DNA of 64,000 bases. It comes from Candidatus Nitrotoga arctica. GTDB lineage: Bacteria > Pseudomonadota > Gammaproteobacteria > Burkholderiales > Gallionellaceae. Shown here piece by piece: positions 5,575-64,000 of this stretch; the first letter of the stretch is position 1, and each line of letters starts with the position of its first letter. The translations under genes and the position numbers were made by a program. A model generated the notes under the pieces. That model was not told the DNA's origin. It saw nothing but the letters and a program-made list of their open reading frames with translations, and ran no database searches. Where the stretch lies: NCBI RefSeq assembly GCF_918378365.1, contig NZ_OU912926.1, forward strand, positions 2,232,001 to 2,296,000. The letters run 5' to 3'.

Positions 5575-7938
5575 TTACGTTTTAATTTTTGAAAAAGCGG
5601 CTGCCATAGCGCTTGGTACGGTTCGTGGAAGCTCTCGTTGCTTGTCTCCCACTGCGCTCTTTGTATGGCTCAGACTATCTTGCTGTCTCTGTGTGTTCCT
5701 TGGTTCTGGCTTACCGTTTGATTGCGGTGCAGCATCGGTCAAACGCATGGTGAGCGCGACACGCTTGCGTTTTTCGTCCACTTCCAGCACTTTCACCTTC
5801 ACCACCTGTCCCGTTTTAACGATCGTGTGCGGATCTCTAACGAAGCTATTCGATAAGGCTGAAATATGTACCAGTCCATCCTGATGCACACCAATATCCA
5901 CGAACGCACCAAAGGCAGCAACGTTGGTAATGACACCTTCAAGAATCATGTCTGGCTTCAAGTCAGACAATTGTTCTATGCCTTCCCTGAAAGTGGCTGT
6001 GGTAAATTCAGGACGCGGGTCGCGCCCTGGTTTCTCTAGCTCTTTCAGTATGTCGTAAATGGTCGGAAGTCCGAATTGCTCGTTCACATATTTGGCGGGA
6101 CTGAGCGCATTTAATAGCTGGCTATTGCCAATAACAGATTTAATATCTTGCTTGAGCTCCGCGAGGATACGCTGCACCAGCGGATAGGATTCAGGATGGA
6201 CGGCAGAGGCATCGAGCGGATTGTCGCCTCCCATGATGCGCAAGAAACCCGCTGCCTGCTCAAAGGTTTTTTCACCCAAACGCGGAACCTCGCGTAATTG
6301 AGCACGAGAGGTGAACATACCCTTGATGTCCCGGTAAGCCACAATTCCCTGCGCCACGCTACTGCTCAACCCGGAAACGCGCGCCAGCAAAGGAACGGAT
6401 GCGGTATTAACATCGACACCAACAGCATTAACACAGTCTTCAACTACGGCATCGAGTGAACGTGCCAATTGGGATTGACCGACATCGTGCTGGTATTGTC
6501 CGACTCCGATCGATTTAGGGTCAATCTTCACCAGCTCGGCCAACGGATCTTGCAACCGTCGTGCAATCGACACCGCGCCACGCAGTGATACATCCATATC
6601 AGGCAGCTCACGCGAGGCAATTTCGGATGCCGAATAAACCGACGCGCCCGCCTCGGACACCACGACATTGGTCAGTTTCAGCTCTGGATGGCGCTTGATC
6701 AGTTCCAGCGCCAATTTGTCTGTCTCCCGCGAGGCCGTGCCATTGCCGATAGCGATCACTGCTACGCGATGTTTTTCGGCTAATTTTGCCAGGGTATGCA
6801 AGGAACCATCCCAATCATTTCTCGGCTGATGCGGATAGATGATGGCGGTGTCCACTACTTTCCCCGTCTCATCCACTACCGCTACTTTGACTCCGGTGCG
6901 TATCCCCGGATCAAGTCCCATCGTGACGCGTGGGCCTGCTGGGGCGGCCAGCAACAAATCTTTCAAATTGCGCGCGAATACATTGATCGCTTCTTTTTCC
7001 GCACGAACCCGCAATGCGCCCATCAACTCCGATTCCAAATGCACAAAACTTTTCACACGCCATGTCCAGCGCACGGTATCGACCAGCCAATTGTCGGCAG
7101 GTCGATGTTGCTGAGAAATGCCAAAACGATTTGCAATACGTATTTCGCAAGTGTTATGCGGCGCACTCCAATTTGTTTTGTCTACCTCGCTGTCGAGGCG
7201 CAATCGCACATTCAGCATTTCCTCGCGACGGCCTCGCAATATGGCTAAGGTACGGTGTGAAGGAATGGTCTTGATCGATTCAGCGTAATCGAAATAGTCG
7301 GCATATTTCGCTGCAAGCTCTTCCTTGCCTTCAATCACTTTAGATTCCACGATGCCATGCTCTTGCACATATTCGCGCAGGGATTGAAGCAAAGTCGCGT
7401 CTTCCGCGAAACGTTCCAACAAGATTTGGCGTGCACCATCCAGTGCCGCCTTGATGTCTGGCACGCCGGGGTTGTCGCATTGCTCAACAGTAAATGGCGG
7501 TTTCAGGTATTTGGCCGCTTCCTCTTCCGGTTGGAGCATTGGGTTAGCCAGCAATGAATCGGCAAGCGGTGCCAGCCCCGCCTCTAGCGCAACTTGCGCC
7601 TTGGTGCGCCGTTTGGGTTTGTAGGGTAGATACAAATCTTCCAGATGCGTCTTGTCCTCGGCATGCGTGATTGCATTCAACAACCCCGGGGTCATCTTGC
7701 CCTGCTCAGTAATCGAGGTAATGATCGTAGCGCGACGTTCTTCGAGTTCACGCAGATAACGCAAGCGCTCTTCCAGCAGCCGCAATTGAATATCGTCCAA
7801 TCCACCAGTCGCCTCCTTGCGGTAGCGGGCGATGAAAGGGACCGTTGCACCCTCATCCAACAAGGCAATGGCTGATGCAATTTGTGCAGGCTTGGCAGCA
7901 ATTTCTACTGTGAGCCGTTGTTCAATAGATGGGAGCAT
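5575..7938 (-). CDS. tex: Tex-like S1 RNA-binding protein
   Basis: Tex is a conserved cytoplasmic nucleic-acid-binding protein that affects transcription in several bacteria. The 787-residue product shows the full family order: helical N-terminal domain, a YqgF/RNase-H-like domain starting near residue 337 ([17 protein letters not shown]), helix-hairpin-helix motifs at about 507-570 ([17 protein letters not shown], then [19 protein letters not shown]), and an S1 RNA-binding domain at about 664-735 ([17 protein letters not shown]). The C-terminal 50 residues are polar and low-complexity. It appears to be transcribed alone. Confidence 0.93.
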
Positions 7939-54519: not shown

Positions 54520-54542
54520 GCCCGGTATAACCGGGCTTTTTT
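54520..54542 (+). terminator. Terminator-like hairpin in the leader of the flavoprotein gene
   Basis: GCCCGG, loop TATAA, CCGGGC, then TTTTTT (54537-54542). It faces right and no plus-strand gene lies upstream, so it may act as a leader attenuator or end a short RNA begun at the TATAAT boxes just before it. A start downstream of it would also allow the gene to be expressed without passing it. Confidence 0.6.
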
Positions 54543-54668
54543 AATATGCTTGGACTGGAGCACAGACGTTTTGTCCGCATGTAAGCAAGGTGTCTCGCTT
54601 GCAGCTGGGTGGATGACCTCCCCGCTTTAAAATTCACAGCGCATAATAAATTTAGGAGTTTGCACTGC

Positions 54669-57600
54669 ATGGAAAGCTTAAATTCTGAGCAAAGTAGCAC
54701 AGGTACTGATAGTGGAGTCGCTCCGCCCCCAGTTTTAAAACTGGGGTTCGGAATGAAATTTGAAGATCTCTACAGCTGCGATGGGCTACCCCGCATCGAC
54801 TCTTGTTTTCTGGCTGAACTTGCTGAAAGCGAACCATTACTGGCTGAAAGACTGGCGGCAGCGCGTAATGCACCGGACAATCTGACGCATCTGGAAGAAT
54901 CGCAGCTCATTATTAATCTGGCCCCACATCTGGAAGATTTTCTTGGTCAATTATTTGATATTCAGATTGCGGTACGCGAGTTGGCGGAACGACACCACGA
55001 GCTAGCGCCGCTGTTCCACTGCAAACGTATTTTTGTGCAGCGTAAAGCAATACACAAGTACAAGGCAGCTGATGCCGCGGCTTTCGATGGTGATATCCTT
55101 GCGGCAGCCTTGTTACAGGCTTTCGGCGATGCTACTGGTGAGATGAGTGAATTGCTTTTTGCCCGGCACGTTAATGGCTGGCTTGATGCCGAGGCAGAAA
55201 ATATCGACAAGCTTGATACCGCCATGCGTTACGCAGCTTGGGCGGCACTTACCACGGCGGGGAAAAAACGTCACGGGCATGGTGTGTTGTTCAAGCTTCC
55301 TGCCAAGCTCGACTTTCAGCGTCTGGTGCCTATCGTTCCCGTTGAAAATGTTTCATATACCGCGCATCGCCTTGCGGATAGCCATCTGCGCCAGCGCGAG
55401 GGTTTCGCCCTTACGGATAATGGTACGGACTTGGCGGGCGCCTTGGGTGAAGCTAATTACTGCATTTGGTGCCATGAACAAGGCAAGGACTCATGCTCGA
55501 TCGGGCTGCGAGAAAAAGAAAGCGTGGCGGGTGCTCCCCCTCCATTTAAGAAAAGTACTTTCGGCATTCCGCTCGCAGGTTGCCCTGTGGATGAGAAAAT
55601 CTCAGAATTCCATAAAGTTAAAGCTTCCGGTCTGGCATTGGGTGCTTTAGCTGTCATTGTTGTAGATAATCCGATGTGCGCCGCAACCGGTCATCGTATT
55701 TGCAATGACTGCATGAAATCCTGTATTTATCAAAAGCAGGAGCCGGTCAATATTCCACAGTCTGAGACGCGGTCATTGAAGGACGTTCTGGAACTGCCGT
55801 GGGGCTTTGAAATTTACAGCCTGCTCACCCGCTGGAATCCGCTCAATATTCGTCGCCCCTATCCGCGTGCTGCCACAGGTAAGCGTGTGCTTGTGGTCGG
55901 TATGGGTCCTGCCGGTTTTACGCTGGCACATCATTTAATGAACGACGGCCATATTGTTGCCGGTGTCGACGGGCTGAAAATCGAGCCCTTGCCGGGCGAT
56001 TTATCTGGCGTAGATGCTGGTGGTAATCGAGTGGCGTTTAGCCCGGTCTATGATGCAAGCGAATTGAGGGAGCCGCTGGATAACAGGGTCATGGCCGGTT
56101 TTGGCGGGGTGGCCGAGTATGGCATTACGGTCCGATGGGATAAGAATTTTCTTAAAATCATTCGCCTGCTGCTGGAGCGGCGCACACAGTTCGCGCTATT
56201 TGGCGGTGTGCGTTTTGGTGGAACAATCACTGCCCAAAGCGCTTTTGAGCTGGGCTTCGATCATATTGCACTGGCTGCTGGCGCTGGCCGTCCGACATTG
56301 CTCGATATACCAAACGGCATGGCATGCGGTGTTCGCACTGCATCGGATTTTCTTATGGCATTGCAATTGACGGGTGCCGCCAAGCCTGACTCCATCGCCA
56401 ACATGCAAGTTCGCTTGCCAGTTGTGGTAATCGGCGGTGGCTTGACCGCTATTGATACAGCCACTGAGTCTCTGGCCTATTACCCGGTGCAAGTTGAGAA
56501 ATTTCTTTGCCGCTACGAAATGCTGGTAGCAGAAAAGGGTGAAGCGGCACTGCGCCGCATGTGGTCGGCGGCTGAAGCAATTATAGGCGACGAGTTTTTG
56601 AGTCATGCTCGAGCTATACGCGCGGAGCGGACTCTGGCCTCGATCGAAGGACGTAACCCCAATATCCTTCAGCTTATCAAATCATGGGGGGGGGTCACTT
56701 TGGCCTATCGCAAGCGCCTGATCGACAGCCCATCATATACCCTCAATCATGAGGAAGTGGAAAAGGCTCTGGAGGAAGGAATTTATTTTGCCGAAGGTTT
56801 GACCCCGGTGCGTGTAGAGGTGGATGTGAATGGCGATGCGACTGCCATGGTGGTGATGAACCAGGTATTAGATGCCGAGGGAGCCTGGCAGAAAGCCGGG
56901 CAAATACATCTGCCGGCGCGCACCATCTTTGTAGCTGCGGGCACCCAACCGAACACAGTGCTGGCCCGCGAGTTTCCAGAATACTTCAAGCTTGATGGAC
57001 GTTACTTCCAGGCATGTGACGAACAAGGGGAACCGGTAAGACCAGAGCGTAGCAATGCCAAACCGGCCAAGGCACAAGTACTTCAATACAAGTACCATGA
57101 TGGCCGCTTCATCAGTTTTTTCGGTGACCTGCATCCTTCTTATTCCGGCAACGTGGTCAAAGCCATGGGCAGTGCGAAACAGGGTTATCCGGTATTGAGC
57201 AAGGTGCTGTCACAGGTGGCCGCTGCAGCAAAAGAGAATAATCAAGAATTTCTTGCACGCCTGGGCAACGATCTGCGCGCCACCATACATCAAGTGGTCC
57301 GTCTTACCCCCAATATTGTCGAAGTAATCGTCAAAGCCCCTGCCGCGGCGCGCAGCTTTCAACCAGGACAATTTTATCGCCTGCAGAATTACGAGACTCA
57401 TGCCGCACAAATTGATGGTACGCGCATGGTCATGGAAGGTTTAGCCCTGACCGGCGCTTGGGTTGATGCCGAGCAAGGCTTGCTCTCTACTATTGTGCTG
57501 GAAATGGGCGGCTCGTCGCAGTTATGTACAATGCTGAAGCCCGGTGAACCGGTAGTGCTTATGGGGCCAACTGGTACGCCCACTGAGATTGCTCCGGGGG

Positions 57601-58253
57601 AAATAGTGTTGCTGGCTGGTGGAGGCTTGGGCAACGCCGTACTATTTTCCATCGGCAAGGCATTCCGTAGCGCCGGCTCTAAAGTTCTTTACTTTGCCGG
57701 CTACAAAAAAATGATAGATCGTTACAAGGTGGAAGACATTGAAATGGCCGCTGATGTGGTGATTTGGTGCAGCGATGAAGCGCCCGGATTTATACCGAAT
57801 CGTCCCCAAGATCGAACTTATGTAGGCAACATCGTGCAAGCCATCAAAGCCTATGCCAGCGGCGAATTAGGGCAGCCAGACATCGCGGTGAATCAAGCCG
57901 ATCGCATCATTGCGATTGGTTCAGACAGGATGATGGCTGCGGTTGCGGCGGCCCGTCATAACGAGCTGAAACCCTATATGAAACCGGATCACCACGCCTT
58001 TGGTTCCATCAATTCACCCATGCAATGCATGATGAAAGAGATTTGCGGCCAGTGCATTCAGGAGCACTTCGATATATCGACCGGGGAAAAGACCTATGTA
58101 TTTTCCTGTTTCAACCAGGATCAGAGACTAGACTGTGTAAATTTCCCCGGGTTGAATGCCCGGCTCAAGCAAAATACCGTGCAGGAAAAACTTACCGCAC
58201 AATGGATAGCGCATTGCCTAGAACAAGATGACATATTGACAGGCACATCTTGA
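54669..58253 (+). CDS. Large Fe-S flavoprotein: GltD/NfnB-like core fused to a PyrK/NfnA-like C-terminus
   Basis: The 1194-residue start (MESLNSEQ) has AGGAG ten bases ahead. Residues 1-260 are helical and unrecognised. Two Cys groups follow: C265, C268, C276, C305 (CIWCHEQGKDSC) and C337, C345, C348, C352 (CNDCMKSC), fitting two [4Fe-4S] clusters. A GltD-like FAD/NAD(P) unit lies at about 405-880, with GMGPAGFTLAHHL near 407 and a second dinucleotide motif VVIGGGLTAIDTATES near 586. The rest is FNR/PyrK-like: FAD fold from about 868 (FQPGQFYRL), nucleotide site LLAGGGLGNAVLFSIG near 980, and a [2Fe-2S]-type group C1120, C1126, C1129, C1147. NfnAB has the same parts as two subunits, so a soluble, perhaps bifurcating, pyridine-nucleotide oxidoreductase is inferred. 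pntAA lies 70 bases downstream. Confidence 0.7.
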   Translation: MESLNSEQSSTGTDSGVAPPPVLKLGFGMKFEDLYSCDGLPRIDSCFLAELAESEPLLAERLAAARNAPDNLTHLEESQLIINLAPHLEDFLGQLFDIQIAVRELAERHHELAPLFHCKRIFVQRKAIHKYKAADAAAFDGDILAAALLQAFGDATGEMSELLFARHVNGWLDAEAENIDKLDTAMRYAAWAALTTAGKKRHGHGVLFKLPAKLDFQRLVPIVPVENVSYTAHRLADSHLRQREGFALTDNGTDLAGALGEANYCIWCHEQGKDSCSIGLREKESVAGAPPPFKKSTFGIPLAGCPVDEKISEFHKVKASGLALGALAVIVVDNPMCAATGHRICNDCMKSCIYQKQEPVNIPQSETRSLKDVLELPWGFEIYSLLTRWNPLNIRRPYPRAATGKRVLVVGMGPAGFTLAHHLMNDGHIVAGVDGLKIEPLPGDLSGVDAGGNRVAFSPVYDASELREPLDNRVMAGFGGVAEYGITVRWDKNFLKIIRLLLERRTQFALFGGVRFGGTITAQSAFELGFDHIALAAGAGRPTLLDIPNGMACGVRTASDFLMALQLTGAAKPDSIANMQVRLPVVVIGGGLTAIDTATESLAYYPVQVEKFLCRYEMLVAEKGEAALRRMWSAAEAIIGDEFLSHARAIRAERTLASIEGRNPNILQLIKSWGGVTLAYRKRLIDSPSYTLNHEEVEKALEEGIYFAEGLTPVRVEVDVNGDATAMVVMNQVLDAEGAWQKAGQIHLPARTIFVAAGTQPNTVLAREFPEYFKLDGRYFQACDEQGEPVRPERSNAKPAKAQVLQYKYHDGRFISFFGDLHPSYSGNVVKAMGSAKQGYPVLSKVLSQVAAAAKENNQEFLARLGNDLRATIHQVVRLTPNIVEVIVKAPAAARSFQPGQFYRLQNYETHAAQIDGTRMVMEGLALTGAWVDAEQGLLSTIVLEMGGSSQLCTMLKPGEPVVLMGPTGTPTEIAPGEIVLLAGGGLGNAVLFSIGKAFRSAGSKVLYFAGYKKMIDRYKVEDIEMAADVVIWCSDEAPGFIPNRPQDRTYVGNIVQAIKAYASGELGQPDIAVNQADRIIAIGSDRMMAAVAAARHNELKPYMKPDHHAFGSINSPMQCMMKEICGQCIQEHFDISTGEKTYVFSCFNQDQRLDCVNFPGLNARLKQNTVQEKLTAQWIAHCLEQDDILTGTS

Positions 58254-58282
58254 TGATAAAATTATTTAATTATGGGTTCATG

Positions 58283-58306
58283 TGCCCGGTATACCCGGGC
58301 ATTTTT
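58283..58306 (+). terminator. Intercistronic terminator-like hairpin before pntAA
   Basis: TGCCCGG, loop TATAC, CCGGGCA, then TTTTT. It is nearly the same as the hairpin at 54520-54542. It ends about 17 bases before the pntAA start, so it may partly uncouple pnt expression from the flavoprotein gene or protect the mRNA end. Confidence 0.6.
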
Positions 58307-58323
58307 AAAAGGGGAGATGTTTC

Positions 58324-59448
58324 ATGCGTATAGGCATTCCTACGGAAACGCACGCAGGTGAAACACGTGTCGCGGCAACACCCGAAACGGTAAAAAAGAT
58401 GCTGGCCGCTGGTCATGCGGTCATGGTGCAGCAGGGTGCCGGAGCAGGAGCGAGTATTCCCGATGCAGACTATCAGGCAGCAGGTGCCACCTTGGTCAGC
58501 GCCGCGGAAGTTTATGCTCAAGCGGAGATCATGCTTAAAGTGAAAGCTCCAACTGAAGACGAGCTGGCAAAGCTGGCCGCCAAAACCGTGCTGATCGGCT
58601 TACTTTCACCTTCTCAGGCGGACTTGGTTGCGGCCTACGCTAAGCAGGGAATCACCGCTTTTGCCATGGAAAAGCTGCCGCGCACGTCACGCGCGCAAGC
58701 TATGGATGTTCTGTCTTCGCAAGCTAATATTGCCGGATATAAGGCGGTACTAGTGGCGGCTAATTTATATAAACGGTTTATGCCGATGTTGATGACGGCT
58801 GCCGGAACTGTGAAGGCTGCGCGCGTGGTGATATTAGGCGTGGGTGTGGCTGGTTTGCAAGCTATCGCCACTGCCAAGCGCATGGGTGCGATAATCGAGG
58901 CTTCCGATGTGCGTCCTGCAGTGAAAGAACAAGTGGAGTCCCTGGGTGCCAAATTCATAGATGTGCCTTATGAAACTGACGAGGAGCGTGAAATTGCCCA
59001 AGGCGTTGGCGGTTATGCCCGCTCCATGCCCGCCAGTTGGATGGAACGTCAGAAGGGAGAGGTTGCCAAACGTGTGGCGCAAGCCGATATTGTCATTACC
59101 ACTGCATTGATTCCCGGTAAAACCGCACCAGTGCTGGTGACAGAGGATATGGTCAAATCCATGAAGCCAGGTTCCGTGATCGTGGATATGGCTGTTGAAG
59201 CAGGCGGCAATTGCCCATTGTCCGAGTTAGGGAAGACGGTGGTTAAGCATGGCATCACATTGGTGGGTGAAGACAACCTACCTGCTTTGGTTGCTGCAGA
59301 TGCCAGCGCTTTATATGCACGCAATCTATTCAATTTCCTCAATTTACTATGCGACCCCAAGAACGGCGGGAAGATGAACATCAATCGTACTGACGACATT
59401 ATCGCCGGATCGCTGCTGTGTATCGACGGAGAAGTAGTTATTAAATAA
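58324..59448 (+). CDS. pntAA: NAD(P) transhydrogenase subunit alpha part 1 (NAD-binding)
   Basis: This 374-residue domain I of the proton-translocating transhydrogenase binds NAD(H). It begins [23 protein letters not shown], has the dinucleotide loop [19 protein letters not shown] near 170 and the mobile loop [10 protein letters not shown]. It is soluble, without the membrane part, which is encoded separately in pntAB as in many bacteria with a split alpha chain. GGGGAG precedes the ATG. Confidence 0.94.
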
Positions 59449-59524
59449 ATACATTAACCCCTCCCTCTCAGAAAATGAGCTGGGAAAGGTTAAGACTTGC
59501 CAATCTCAACATAGGAGTTTTGAA

Positions 59525-59821
59525 ATGAGTAGTGCAATTGATCCTGTCATTATCAATCTGACCGTATTCGTATTGGCCGTGGTGGTTGGCTATCACGTGG
59601 TATGGAATGTCACGCCTGCGCTACATACACCGCTAATGGCAGTGACCAACGCAATTAGCGGCATTATCATCGTCGGTGCCATGTTGGCGGCGGGACCTGA
59701 GCAACTCGACGCTGGCACAGTAATGGGGTTAGTCGCAGTTATGCTGGCGGCAATTAATGTATTCGGGGGTTTTCTGGTAACACAGCGCATGCTGAGCATG
59801 TTCAAAAAGAAAAGTAAATAA
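59525..59821 (+). CDS. pntAB: NAD(P) transhydrogenase subunit alpha part 2 (membrane)
   Basis: A 98-residue membrane protein with three hydrophobic helices, beginning [51 protein letters not shown]. The [13 protein letters not shown] segment is the signature of this proton-channel half. AGGAG lies eight bases ahead of the ATG. It sits between pntAA and pntB, as expected for the split enzyme. Confidence 0.93.
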
Positions 59822-59972
59822 GCCGAGAACGTCGATGTTCAGACGCAAAAAGTACAGCGGAGCGATATCAGCCATTAATTTGTAATAGCTCCCTACTTTA
59901 TTTGTTGAGCATCACGATGCTTCACCTGATTTGCGAGGTAAAGCCGTTACAAAAAATAATCAAGGAAAAATT

Positions 59973-61352
59973 ATGTCGGCAAATTTTGTTGCATTAGCCT
60001 ATTTGATCGCCGCAGTTCTGTTTATCCTGGCGCTGAAAGGCTTGAGTTCTCCCATTTCCGCACGGCGCGGAAATATGTTTGGCATGATAGGCATGGCCAT
60101 TGCGGTGCTCACCACACTGACTATCACTCAGAACCTGATTTATATTGCGCTTGCCATCATCGTGGGCGGAGCGATAGGTGCGGTAGTCGCCCGGCGCATT
60201 CAAATGACTGCCATGCCGGAATTGGTAGCGGCAATGCACTCGCTGGTCGGTCTGGCGGCGGTGCTGGTCGCCATGTCCGCGTTTTATAATCCAGTCGCCT
60301 ATGGCATCTCACCGCTGCACGCCAGCAACCTGATTGAATTATTCATCGGTACGTTTGTTGGTGCGATTACATTCACCGGTTCCATTATCGCTTTCGGAAA
60401 ACTATCCGGCAAACTCGGCAGCAAGCCCTTGCATTTTGCTGGACAGCACTGGTTTAACCTGTTTCTGGGTGTTGTCATGATCGCCTTCGGCATCATGTTC
60501 ATTTTTACGGAAAGCTGGACGCCATTCCTGATCATGATTGCTTTAGCACTGTCGCTGGGAGTATTACTGATTTTGCCGATTGGTGGAGCGGACATGCCCG
60601 TCGTGGTATCCATGCTTAACTCTTATTCCGGGTGGGCCGCAGCAGGCATTGGCTTTACCCTAAATAATAATATGCTGATTATTGCCGGTTCGTTAGTCGG
60701 CAGCTCTGGCGCGATTCTTTCTTACATTATGTGTAAGGCAATGAACCGCTCCTTCTTCAATGTAATTCTTGGTGGCTTTGGTGGTGGTGATGGCGGAGTG
60801 GGGACTGGCGAGGTCGAGCAGCGGCCGGTACGTAGCGGTAGTGCGGATGACGCTGCGTTCCTGATGGGCAATGCGGATAGCGTCATCATCGTCCCGGGCT
60901 ATGGTCTGGCAGTGGCGCGGGCACAACATGCAATCAACGAAATGACTGAGCATTTAATCGAGAAGGGCGTCAAAGTGCGTTATGCCATCCACCCTGTGGC
61001 CGGACGCATGCCGGGGCATATGAACGTATTGCTGGCTGAGGCTGAAGTACCTTACGATCAAGTATTTGAAATGGACGAGATCAATAACGAATTTGCCGAT
61101 ACTGATGTGGTGCTGGTCATCGGTGCTAACGACGTGGTGAATCCTGCAGCCAAGACTGACCCGAACTGCCCTATTTATGGCATGCCGATCATTGATGCGC
61201 ACAAGGCGCGTACTATTCTGGTAGTCAAACGCAGTATGGCTGTCGGCTATGCTGGACTGGACAATGATTTGTTCTATTTAGACAAAACCATGATGGTGTT
61301 TGGCGATGCCAAAAAAGTAGTCGAGGATATAATCAAGGCGTTGCAGCACTAA
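59973..61352 (+). CDS. pntB: NAD(P) transhydrogenase subunit beta
   Basis: The 459-residue start at 59973 (MSANFVALAYLIAAVLFILALKG) has AAGGA ahead; a longer open frame from 59931 adds nothing conserved. About nine membrane helices form the proton path (residues 1-270, with PELVAAMHSLVGLAAV), and the C-terminal NADP(H)-binding domain has VIIVPGYGLAVARAQH and INNEFADTDVVLVIGANDVVNPAAK. Together with PntAA/AB it uses the proton gradient to make NADPH from NADH. Confidence 0.95.
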   Translation: MSANFVALAYLIAAVLFILALKGLSSPISARRGNMFGMIGMAIAVLTTLTITQNLIYIALAIIVGGAIGAVVARRIQMTAMPELVAAMHSLVGLAAVLVAMSAFYNPVAYGISPLHASNLIELFIGTFVGAITFTGSIIAFGKLSGKLGSKPLHFAGQHWFNLFLGVVMIAFGIMFIFTESWTPFLIMIALALSLGVLLILPIGGADMPVVVSMLNSYSGWAAAGIGFTLNNNMLIIAGSLVGSSGAILSYIMCKAMNRSFFNVILGGFGGGDGGVGTGEVEQRPVRSGSADDAAFLMGNADSVIIVPGYGLAVARAQHAINEMTEHLIEKGVKVRYAIHPVAGRMPGHMNVLLAEAEVPYDQVFEMDEINNEFADTDVVLVIGANDVVNPAAKTDPNCPIYGMPIIDAHKARTILVVKRSMAVGYAGLDNDLFYLDKTMMVFGDAKKVVEDIIKALQH

Positions 61353-61752
61353 GTTAATACTTGATTTCATTTCGAATAATATCCCGGTTTACCGGGATAT
61401 TTATTTTAGGCATCTAAAAATAGCGCAGAACTTTGCAAATACCTTCTGACCTAGTCAATATTTTAAACAATGCAATGCAGCAGAGAGGATAGAACCTGGA
61501 TTGTAGAGACACACTAAATTACATTGCGTTCCATAACCCATGCCACATAAAAAACCGAATCGCATATGCCTTCAGGAAACCATGGAGTGCCTTAAAGTAT
61601 TTCTACAGATTGTCGTAAGGTAATATTCAAAATGATTATTCATGAGATACAAAAAGTGATTTCTTAAAGACCCCTTAGAGTAACTATGTTCAGCGTTCAG
61701 CCACACTACAATTATGGAGTTTTCATACAAAATATGATGCTAAATTATTAAC
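61353..61752. other. AT-rich intergenic region after pntB
   Basis: A 400-base gap with the pntB terminator at its left end. The rest is AT-rich and should contain the sensor gene's promoter; no gene or clear promoter stands out. Confidence 0.5.
61379..61408 (+). terminator. Terminator of the pnt operon
   Basis: ATATCCCGGT, loop TT, ACCGGGATAT (61379-61400), then TTATTTTA. A strong 10-bp stem 27 bases past the pntB stop. It is the third hairpin with a CCGG-centred stem in this cluster. Confidence 0.75.
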
Positions 61753-64000
61753 GTGGTGAAACCATTGACTGCATCCCGCATTAATCCTATTCAACAGCTA
61801 TTATCATGGTCTCCTGCTATCCGATTTCTACCATGGTTGGTAGTAATTATTTCTTTAGCTGTAACCCATCAGTTGTGGAAAAATGCGCACTACGAAGCTG
61901 TACGGGAGTTGCAATATAATTTCAATTTCCGTTTACTTGATGTCAGCAACCGCATTGAACAACGCATGCAGTCTTATGAACAAGCGTTGCGGGGTACACA
62001 AGGTTTATTCGCAGCTTCCATCAGCGTAGAGCGGGACGAGTTCCATGCCTATATCGGTGCTCAACATATTGTGGAGAGCTTCCCTGGTATTCAAGGTGTG
62101 GGGTTTTCGCTGATCACCCCTACGACGAAGCAAAATAACCACATTGCCACCGTCTCCAAGGAAAGCTTCCCCGCATACCCCAGCCCTCCTAATGAGAAGC
62201 AAGACATCACCACCTCAGTCGTCTACATCGAGCCATTCTTAGAGGGTAATCGACGTACTTTGGGTTACGACATGTATTCCGATCCGGTGCGCCGTGCCGC
62301 AATGGAGCAAGCGCGTGACAACAATAAAGCCGTTATCACCGGCAAGACGAAACTGATACAGGAAAATAGCGAAAGCGCGCAGGCTGGTTTTGTGATGTAT
62401 CTGCCTATCTATAAAAACGGGACACCCTATGCAACCTTGGCTGAGCGTCGCGCCAATCTTGTTGGCTGGGTCTTTGCTCTGTTTCGGATGGATGATCTTA
62501 TACGTGGCATTCTCGGGGCGAGCAGTCCTGACATCGACATCAAAATCCACGACAGCGAGGAGATGTCGAGTAAGACGCTAATGCATGCAACAGACAACAC
62601 CAATAAAAACGACATCAAGATGGACTCGCTCTTTCATGCTTCGAAGCGCCTTGAAATTGCTGGCCACACCTGGACAATGGCTATTAGCTCTCTCCCCCGC
62701 TTTGAGGCACAGTTAGTCAAAGAAAAAGCACAATCCATTGTCGTGGTTGGCTTAGCTGTAAGTATATTGCTGGGCCTACTCACAGGATTGCTGGTGCAGG
62801 GCCGGGAACGCGCTCTTCGAACTGCGCGGAAGATGAATGAACGATTAATCGAGAGCGAGGAGCGCCTACGCCTTAGTCTGATGTATGGCGAGATCGGCAC
62901 TTGGGATTGGGATATTCGCACTAGCAAACTATATTGGTGCGATCATATTTCCGTCCTTATGGCCTGTCCTGCAAGAAAACAGAATGGTACTTATGACGAC
63001 TTCCTGAGCAGCATACATCCGGATGACCGTCAGTACATGATCGATTCCATGAATGGCTGTGTTGAAGAAAGCGCTAGATACAACATAGAGCACCGAGTTA
63101 TTTGGCCGGATGGCACGGTACGCTGGCTACATCAGCGCGGCGGTGTGATACGCGATACAGATGGAACGCCGCTGAAGATGCTGGGTGTGGTTCAGGATGT
63201 GACCAGCAAAAAGCTGGAGGAAATGGAGCTGGTCGAAATCGATACGAGATTGCGCACCATTATTGATGCTGCCCCGGACGCCGTGGTGTTAATGAATTCC
63301 GAGGGCATACTCACTGGCTGGAATGGCCAGGCAGAAAAAATTTTTGGCTGGGCCAGGGAAGAAGCCATCGGACACATGCTGCACGATCTGATCATCCCGC
63401 CGCAATATCGTAATGCGCATATTCAAGGCTTGAAACATTTTTTAGCTTCCGGCAAGGGAGCCGTCCTGAATAAGCGTATAGAGATAACAGGCTTGCATCG
63501 CGATGGCCATCAATTTGCCATCGAATTGGCAATATCTCCGGTCAAACAAAAGGGTAAATATGAGTTCTGCGCCTTCATCCACGACATCACAGCACGCAAG
63601 AAAACTCAAAGTTTGCTGTTGCGTGCCAAAGAAGACGCCGAGCGAAGTTCCGCAGAGTTAATCAGCTACATCCAGGCAATTGACCAGCACGCCCTCGTTT
63701 CCGTTGCCGACCCTTTCGGGCGCATCATCCAGGCCAATGACAAATTTTGTGAAGTCAGCGGCTACAGCCGGGAAGAGATGCTCGGCCATGACCACCGTAT
63801 CATTAATTCCGAGACGCATCCAAGCGCTTTTTTCGTCGAGATGTGGGTTACCATCGCCAGTGGTGACATCTGGCGCGGTGAAATTTGTAACCGCGCAAAA
63901 AACGGTGCACTCTATTGGGTGGATAGCACTATCGTGCCACTCAAAGATGCCAACGGACAAATTGTACGTTACATATCGGTCAGGGTTGACATTACCAAAC
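61753..64000 (+). CDS. Membrane sensor protein with CHASE and PAS domains (3' end outside window)
   Basis: A GTG-started frame (61753 or 61756) stays open to the window edge, giving at least 749 residues. It has a first membrane helix near 23-43 and an extracytoplasmic CHASE domain (about 75-290, with EQALRGTQGLFAAS and FPGIQGVGF). A second membrane helix lies near 328-350. Three PAS domains follow: about 370-480 (GEIGTWDWDI, HRVIWPDGTVRWLHQRG), 499-615 (IIDAAPDAVVLMN) and 643 to the edge (FCEVSGYSREEMLGHDHRIINS). CHASE-PAS proteins usually end in a histidine kinase or a GGDEF/EAL module; which applies lies beyond the window. No ribosome site is obvious. Confidence 0.85.
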   Translation, partial: MVKPLTASRINPIQQLLSWSPAIRFLPWLVVIISLAVTHQLWKNAHYEAVRELQYNFNFRLLDVSNRIEQRMQSYEQALRGTQGLFAASISVERDEFHAYIGAQHIVESFPGIQGVGFSLITPTTKQNNHIATVSKESFPAYPSPPNEKQDITTSVVYIEPFLEGNRRTLGYDMYSDPVRRAAMEQARDNNKAVITGKTKLIQENSESAQAGFVMYLPIYKNGTPYATLAERRANLVGWVFALFRMDDLIRGILGASSPDIDIKIHDSEEMSSKTLMHATDNTNKNDIKMDSLFHASKRLEIAGHTWTMAISSLPRFEAQLVKEKAQSIVVVGLAVSILLGLLTGLLVQGRERALRTARKMNERLIESEERLRLSLMYGEIGTWDWDIRTSKLYWCDHISVLMACPARKQNGTYDDFLSSIHPDDRQYMIDSMNGCVEESARYNIEHRVIWPDGTVRWLHQRGGVIRDTDGTPLKMLGVVQDVTSKKLEEMELVEIDTRLRTIIDAAPDAVVLMNSEGILTGWNGQAEKIFGWAREEAIGHMLHDLIIPPQYRNAHIQGLKHFLASGKGAVLNKRIEITGLHRDGHQFAIELAISPVKQKGKYEFCAFIHDITARKKTQSLLLRAKEDAERSSAELISYIQAIDQHALVSVADPFGRIIQANDKFCEVSGYSREEMLGHDHRIINSETHPSAFFVEMWVTIASGDIWRGEICNRAKNGALYWVDSTIVPLKDANGQIVRYISVRVDITK

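Follow-up and report, generated by a model that had tools for sequence, protein, structure and literature searches.

We analyzed a 64,000-nucleotide window (positions 2232001-2296000) of the 3.30-Mb single-contig genome of a Candidatus Nitrotoga host (a nitrite-oxidizing member of the Gallionellaceae), which encodes a 1194-residue fused Nfn-like iron-sulfur flavoprotein directly before pntAA, pntAB, and pntB, the genes for the transhydrogenase Pnt. We propose, with a probability of roughly 60%, that this flavoprotein is a soluble NAD(P)H:ferredoxin oxidoreductase that feeds a siroheme sulfite reductase, while Pnt maintains the supply of NADPH. The proposal draws on the architecture of the protein, its invariant cofactor ligands, its predicted fold, and the operon contexts of its gene in other genomes.

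The chain begins with a helical N-terminus of 260 residues, continues with an NfnB/GltD-like module, and ends with an NfnA/PyrK-like module. An earlier reading made from the sequence alone (the sequence-only reading) had placed both modules in one 1194-residue chain and had likened the C-terminal third to FNR/PyrK; this is borne out by domain matches, by a predicted structure that superposes on both Nfn subunits, and by an NfnA-type module at residues 865 to 1183. The top fold and profile matches are likewise Nfn subunits. That reading had also recognized no fold in the N-terminal ~260 residues, and our fold and profile comparisons returned no convincing match for this domain, which is present in 22/22 of the family members aligned. 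In addition, the predicted structure has an apparent long helical insertion at residues ~592 to 672.

The cluster cysteines, which had been expected to be conserved in homologues, are so without exception. In an alignment of the flavoprotein with 60 homologues (61 sequences, 38 to 77% identity to it), the seven cysteines and E366 of the two-[4Fe-4S] set and the four cysteines of the [2Fe-2S] set (Table 1) are invariant in 61/61 sequences, and all 11 cluster cysteines are thus constant. The first set matches the ligands of T. maritima NfnB (C39/C42/C47/C100 and C51/C90/C96/E117; PMC7596348) by order and, around E366, also by hidden Markov model alignment, and the roles of the individual [4Fe-4S] ligands were provisionally assigned on these grounds. 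Their spacing is unlike the printed Nfn motifs (x7 between C268 and C276, x28 between C276 and C305, and C-x2-C at 345-348). Further, all sequences share Y680-R681, and 60/61 have K or R at residue 682, resembling the NfnB NADP motif YRR. Among the features that mark an Nfn, we find seven Cys and one Glu, a GltD-like FAD domain with a YRR-like motif, and an FNR-type FAD/NAD module.

The best family model for the protein is PRK06567/NF005128, at 748.8 bits and below its curated cut-off of 1072. GltD models reach 34 to 90 bits against cut-offs above 440 (TIGR01317, 47.9 bits versus 447.7), and the CysJ-type models TIGR01931 and PF00258 (flavodoxin domain) were not among its profile matches. PF27156 is precomputed on nearly all of the homologues listed, yet our own Pfam scan of the protein gave no match to it; this accession may represent a recently added family that covers part of the flavoprotein.

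What is new here is that cys-operon and FdxA contexts supply a clue to function from the substrate side, which the sequence-only reading lacked. Our context survey comprised 160 rows, each a locus with the flavoprotein gene, including 14 Nitrosomonadaceae loci and 133 rows outside Nitrotoga and the Nitrosomonadaceae. Genes of sulfate assimilation (cys) precede the flavoprotein gene by at most 7 kb, on the same strand, in 24/160 rows, that is, in 13/14 Nitrosomonadaceae loci (the 14th has only 1.4 kb of upstream sequence) and in 11/133 others. They stand directly beside the flavoprotein gene in nine Nitrosomonadaceae loci, with intervening genes in L073, L080, L081, and L139. The usual order in this family is cysB (opposite strand), sulfite reductase, sometimes DUF934, cysH, cysD, cysN, the flavoprotein gene, pntAA, pntAB, and pntB. 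Two sulfite reductases alternate at one operon position, one of ~580 residues with DUF934 (L056, L066, L073, L080, and L081) and one of ~700 residues without it (L061, L065, L070, L072, L075, L077, and L078), one naturally substituting for the other near the flavoprotein gene. DUF934 stands between the sulfite reductase gene and cysH in the host and in some of the Nitrosomonadaceae. In P. stutzeri, sulfite reductase activity depends on DUF934 (PMC5554334), which supports the view that these cys clusters are working units of sulfite reduction.

The same arrangement recurs in a class sample of 337 genomes around G178, 72 of which carry the flavoprotein. We take this sample as Alphaproteobacteria because its flavoproteins mix in the tree with those of Azospirillum, Reyranella, Rhodospirillales, and Caulobacteraceae contigs. 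Matches to cysI, cysH, cysD, cysN, or DUF934 occur in 9/60 loci; every one of them lies upstream in the orientation of the flavoprotein gene, and none of the 60 loci has a cys match downstream of the gene or on the other strand; two CysB matches (L194 and L230) are excluded from the count, the LysR family being generic. Nine of nine in one of four positions has a chance of 4e-6 if the positions are equally likely, a value that serves as a guide only, as the loci share ancestry and their flanks are unequal. The locus L130 holds a complete series, cysI-cysG(N)-cysH-cysD-cysNC followed by the flavoprotein gene, with the cysNC stop at 6718 two bases before the start at 6721. Its sulfite reductase is E. 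coli-like (over the PRK13504 cut-off), and three kinds of sulfite reductase thus occur beside the gene: DUF934-linked, ~700-residue, and E. coli-like. Siroheme synthase-like genes are present in L130, L195, and L206, and in the latter two they lie between the sulfite reductase and flavoprotein genes. On a FastTree tree, cys linkage over the 24/160 rows needs at least eight changes; the 24 include L100, whose flavoprotein is identical to that of L244. Outside these counts, L114 has cysH-DUF934-cysI just downstream on the opposite strand and FdxA before the flavoprotein gene, and in L025 a partial sulfite/nitrite reductase lies immediately upstream.

The gene for the ferredoxin FdxA stands directly before that of the flavoprotein in 6/160 rows (L087, L096, L110, L114, L141, and L142), adjacency being defined as a gene end at most 100 nucleotides upstream of the flavoprotein frame or an overlap with the stop-free extension of that frame; three of the six adjacent FdxA were typed over cut-off. 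In L132 and L145 (two genomes of one genus), the neighbor is a 2-oxoacid:ferredoxin oxidoreductase. Each of these neighbors is, makes, or may use low-potential ferredoxin.

The linkage to pnt is narrower in distribution. PntAA adjoins the flavoprotein on the same strand in 17/17 Nitrotoga genomes in which the contig continues (in two of the 19 genomes, it ends in or near the flavoprotein gene) and in 10/13 Nitrosomonadaceae loci whose downstream sequence is long enough; of the three exceptions, G039 has Pnt at another place in its genome. Among the 133 rows outside these two groups, 116 of which have at least 1.5 kb of downstream sequence, PntAA beside the flavoprotein was found in none. The 70-nucleotide adjacency to which the sequence-only reading drew attention is hence not unique to this genome, but it is limited to Nitrotoga and most Nitrosomonadaceae and is not the general context of the family. 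The co-occurrence check suggested there, run over a phylum sample of 349 genomes, is uninformative because Pnt is present in 304/349 of them. In trees of the flavoprotein, Nitrotoga and Nitrosomonadaceae form separate clades; a single joint clade is not rejected, so that a common origin of the linkage is possible and it may have arisen once.

Cells of Nitrotoga and the Nitrosomonadaceae make NADH by uphill electron flow (in Nitrotoga from nitrite). In both groups, the proton gradient would drive PntAA-AB-B to convert NADH into NADPH, which would pass hydride to the FAD of the NfnB-like module, and single electrons would cross the two [4Fe-4S] clusters to an FdxA-type ferredoxin. The C-terminal module with FAD and [2Fe-2S] would react with NAD(H) and serve as a second entry or, alternatively, as the high-potential branch of a bifurcation. 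Reduced ferredoxin would then deliver six electrons per sulfide to the siroheme sulfite reductase of sulfate assimilation, the flavoprotein and ferredoxin together taking the job that CysJ has in E. coli. We infer this electron path, the ferredoxin partner, the sulfite reductase as main consumer, and the transfer of the whole to Nitrotoga from the observations above.

Bifurcation is not required by the proposed role: because sulfite reduction is not extremely low in potential, a simple transfer from NADPH to ferredoxin would be enough. That the flavoprotein bifurcates is conceivable, although we lean against it. The Nfn [2Fe-2S] motif reads DGTGMCGxCRx10CV, whose Asp ligand is associated with a potential of +80 mV (PMC6405883), and the replacement of this Asp by Cys bears directly on bifurcation. 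More speculatively still, Pnt and a bifurcating flavoprotein might form a two-step, gradient-driven ferredoxin-reducing module of aerobic nitrifiers that feeds assimilatory sulfite reductase, with the overall reaction 2 NADPH + NAD+ + 2 oxidized ferredoxin -> 2 NADP+ + NADH + 2 reduced ferredoxin. If this were true, Pnt and the flavoprotein would take the place of Rnf or Fix as a soluble-plus-membrane system, and thousands of misannotated homologues would make bifurcation a routine part of aerobic biosynthesis.

In the host genome, a cluster near 2.63 Mb encodes a CysI-like sulfite reductase, DUF934, cysH, cysD, and cysN, with cysB divergent and a TauE-like gene first. This is the only CysI-like sulfite reductase of the host; it is closest to the ferredoxin-dependent nitrite reductase and NirA models, below their cut-offs, and the only other PF01077 protein is a NirB-like open reading frame. 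A profile search of the host genome found no CysJ over cut-off. There is one FdxA, at 2571770, and only two FNR proteins were matched by PF00175, neither typed as a ferredoxin-NADP reductase: one is closest to BenC (below cut-off), and the other is a CysJ-like flavodoxin reductase. The fused flavoprotein is the best candidate found for reducing the host FdxA, other-fold reductases not having been sought. Two side observations concern this gene set. The CysJ-like flavodoxin reductase (L152, 4914-9464; host 2962.9-2967.5 kb) lies beside genes that by eye look ApbE-like and PepSY-like, and it is perhaps an iron-uptake reductase liable to be annotated as sulfite reductase alpha. The TauE-like permease, also recognized by eye (L151, 9117-9899), ends ~100 nucleotides upstream of the host sulfite reductase gene on the same strand and is a possible sulfite or sulfate carrier.

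Several points weigh against a ferredoxin-dependent role in sulfite reduction. The Nitrotoga cys operon is ~335 kb away from the flavoprotein gene and does not include it; because these genes are elsewhere in the genome, the role in Nitrotoga is carried over from other lineages. PF00175 misses the FNR module of the flavoprotein itself and may miss others. Across the survey, 136/160 rows lack a cys gene in the 7-kb upstream range. Outside the nitrifier groups, cys linkage is limited to 11 of 133 rows; the upstream sequence reaches at least 1.5 kb in 119 of these 133 and at least 6 kb in 96. Absence of CysJ does not track the flavoprotein in the phylum sample: CysJ is matched in 2/16 genomes with it versus 77/333 without it (Fisher p 0.54) and over cut-off in 0/16 versus 47/333 (p 0.14). 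As FdxA is near-universal (38/41 genomes), only its adjacency counts, and a flavoprotein beside 2-oxoacid:ferredoxin oxidoreductase may run the other way, oxidizing ferredoxin. The [2Fe-2S] site, C-x5-C-x2-C-x17-C, has Cys instead of the Nfn Asp as first ligand in 61/61 sequences and a spacing one residue longer. Finally, the flavoprotein also occurs in small genomes, and its C-terminus has diverged in one of them, G380.

We weighed four other explanations against these contexts. The flavoprotein might run mainly in the classical Nfn way, forming NADPH from NADH and reduced ferredoxin, with Pnt as a second NADPH source. This is the usual in vivo direction of Nfn (PMC6405883), and korAB-like genes lie beside the flavoprotein gene in G088 and G244 (one genus); we nevertheless regard it as unlikely, given that users of reduced ferredoxin recur beside the gene more often than makers and that the Nitrotoga and Nitrosomonadaceae loci, within flanks of at most 10 kb (mostly 1.5 kb in Nitrotoga) and not genome-wide, have no KorA- or KorB-like gene. 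Somewhat less probable is a direct docking on CysI through the extra N-terminal domain, without ferredoxin. The flavoprotein gene does follow cysI/cysG/cysH or cysDN in the nine class-sample loci and in L130, the N-terminal domain is shared by every aligned member and has no assigned role, and DsrL, a GltD-like flavoprotein, partners a dissimilatory sulfite reductase (PMC7596348). Against such docking stand the six rows with adjoining FdxA, the rows that have the flavoprotein without a nearby cys gene, and the differing kinds of sulfite reductase, which make a single docking surface less likely.

The close adjacency to pntAA and the two nucleotide-binding modules would also suit a flavoprotein that by itself exchanges NADPH and NADH by flavin and so balances Pnt, its cluster and ferredoxin chemistry being secondary. 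We consider this improbable, as it would not account for the cys and FdxA contexts and none of the cluster ligands varies. Least credible is the annotated function of glutamate synthase beta or 2-polyprenylphenol hydroxylase, or that of a GltD-like donor to another synthase: the family model and GltD scores fall short of their cut-offs, the FNR half is foreign to GltD, and by eye no gltB was noticed among the neighbors, no gltB search having been made. Reduction of ferredoxin for siroheme sulfite reductase thus remains our preferred reading.

At least 7999 database members of the family were scored. The nearest named homologues (90 to 92% identity) are from Candidatus Nitrotoga, and the flavoprotein is found in 19/19 Nitrotoga genomes (some as fragments), in 0/6 genomes from other genera of the Gallionellaceae, and in 9/16 from other families of the order, as well as on a contig titled Candidatus Gallionella acididurans (L053). 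It is present in 16/349 genomes of the phylum sample. Among the best 120 matches listed, relatives 48 to 53% identical to the divergent flavoprotein of G153 bear the names of Acidithiobacillus, Nitrosococcus, Nitrococcus, Acidiferrobacter, and Halorhodospira, and contigs titled Bryobacterales and Planctomycetota carry it among the best 80 of at least 564 matches. Many of the organisms that bear it are aerobic or lithotrophic. In L137 (G380) and L233 (G578), from small-genome bacteria of the class sample, the protein matches well only to about residue 970; the NfnA part has diverged, which would suit a non-bifurcating reductase, and FdxA lies in the same stretch. Four contigs of environmental metagenome-assembled genomes (L054, L067, L090, and L100) are titled Bordetella parapertussis or Rhizobium sp. 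Q54, names that look like placeholders.

The features of the locus are collected in Table 1. The domain set of Pnt is complete (PF05222, PF01262, PF12769, and PF02233 all over cut-off), and the host genome has one match each for the flavoprotein and for the Pnt 4TM subunit. The ATG start of pntB was preferred because relatives are 459 residues long. The hairpin in the flavoprotein leader is a possible attenuator or terminator; it is one of 12 terminator-like sites found in the region, where 9.0 are expected, and had no Rfam match up to E 0.5. No plus-strand gene was seen 5' of it, and mutL runs the opposite way. The hairpin 3' of pntB is the probable end of the transcription unit. Transcription of pnt separately from the flavoprotein gene may occur; among 10 promoter-like matches, where chance alone would give 10.3, one lies at 58236-58265. 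Beyond pntB, positions 61753-64000 encode a large sensor-like protein with PAS-like sequence (by eye) that runs off the window, and in L049 pntB is likewise followed by a similar sensor-like gene.

Table 1. Features of the flavoprotein-pnt locus, in positions of the window
Feature	Position	Strand	Basis or remark
Hairpin and T-run in flavoprotein leader, 126 nucleotides 5' of start	54520..54542	+	Consensus match only
AGGAG, ribosome-binding-like, before ATG 54669	54654..54658	+	Read in sequence
Fused Nfn-like iron-sulfur flavoprotein, 1194 residues	54669..58253	+	Reading frame, ATG start
Helical N-terminal domain, residues 31-201	54759..55271	+	Predicted secondary structure
Two-[4Fe-4S] ligand set C265, C268, C276, C305, C345, C348, C352, E366	55461..55766	+	
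NfnB/GltD-like FAD and NADP(H) module, residues ~406-850, with Y680-R681-K682	55884..57218	+	
NfnA/PyrK-like FNR module, residues 865-1183, [2Fe-2S] C1120, C1126, C1129, C1147	57261..58217	+	
pntAA, transhydrogenase alpha subunit 1	58324..59448	+	70 nucleotides after flavoprotein gene
pntAB, 4TM subunit	59525..59821	+	
pntB, beta subunit	59973..61352	+	ATG 59973 chosen over TTG 59931
Terminator-like hairpin 3' of pntB	61378..61410 (or 61378-61401)	+	Consensus match only

A siroheme sulfite reductase without CysJ is probably common among bacteria (CysJ was matched in only 79/349 genomes of the phylum sample), so that the reductase there lacks an assigned electron donor, for which the flavoprotein is a concrete candidate. 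The enzyme is widespread and misnamed; its family has thousands of database members, and the best model bears a glutamate-synthase name. If our proposal is true, Nfn-type chemistry would be placed in ammonia and nitrite oxidizers, and it would explain how nitrifiers convert scarce, uphill-made NADH into ferredoxin-level reductant. Like CysJ, the flavoprotein would bring NADPH electrons to sulfite reductase; unlike it, CysJ consists of flavodoxin and FNR without Fe-S clusters. The hosts of the flavoprotein include aerobic lithoautotrophs, which sets it apart from NfnAB/NfnI. Compared with NfnAB/NfnI (T. maritima, 4YLF; P. furiosus, 5JCA), it is one chain with an extra N-terminal domain, the helical insertion, and Cys instead of Asp at the [2Fe-2S] cluster.

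The earlier Nfn reading was largely right, and the reversed GltD-PyrK order that it stressed is real in this protein; the order is not new, since Liang et al. (2019, PMC6405883) had already listed it among fused Nfn as "Pattern C", uncharacterized and from Proteobacteria, with a C-terminal NfnA part and ~200 extra residues. Our flavoprotein shares with it the single chain, the extra length, the NfnB part first, and the C-terminal NfnA part (a-FAD, NAD, and [2Fe-2S]), and it is assigned to Pattern C by this description rather than by the sequence of the example from Mobiluncus curtisii. The portions of that account consulted mention no cys, FdxA, or pnt context. We recognized no link of Pattern C Nfn to assimilatory sulfite reduction or Pnt in the open-licence literature searched, and the main text of PMC5764234 contains neither "sulfite" nor "cysI"; ours would, if true, be the first physiological role proposed for Pattern C in that literature. 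Two other systems come close in function. DsrL, which is also GltD-like and a flavoprotein using NAD(P)H, works for a sulfite reductase as well, but it lacks the FNR module, has a C-terminal ferredoxin domain, and partners the dissimilatory DsrAB (PMC7596348). The R. palustris protein AadN belongs to Pattern B and so differs in its fusion pattern, and also in its benzoyl-CoA reductase partner and in serving anaerobic growth; it is likewise a fused Nfn-like protein, and it has been proposed as the source of reduced ferredoxin for a reductase encoded alongside (PMC9973337).

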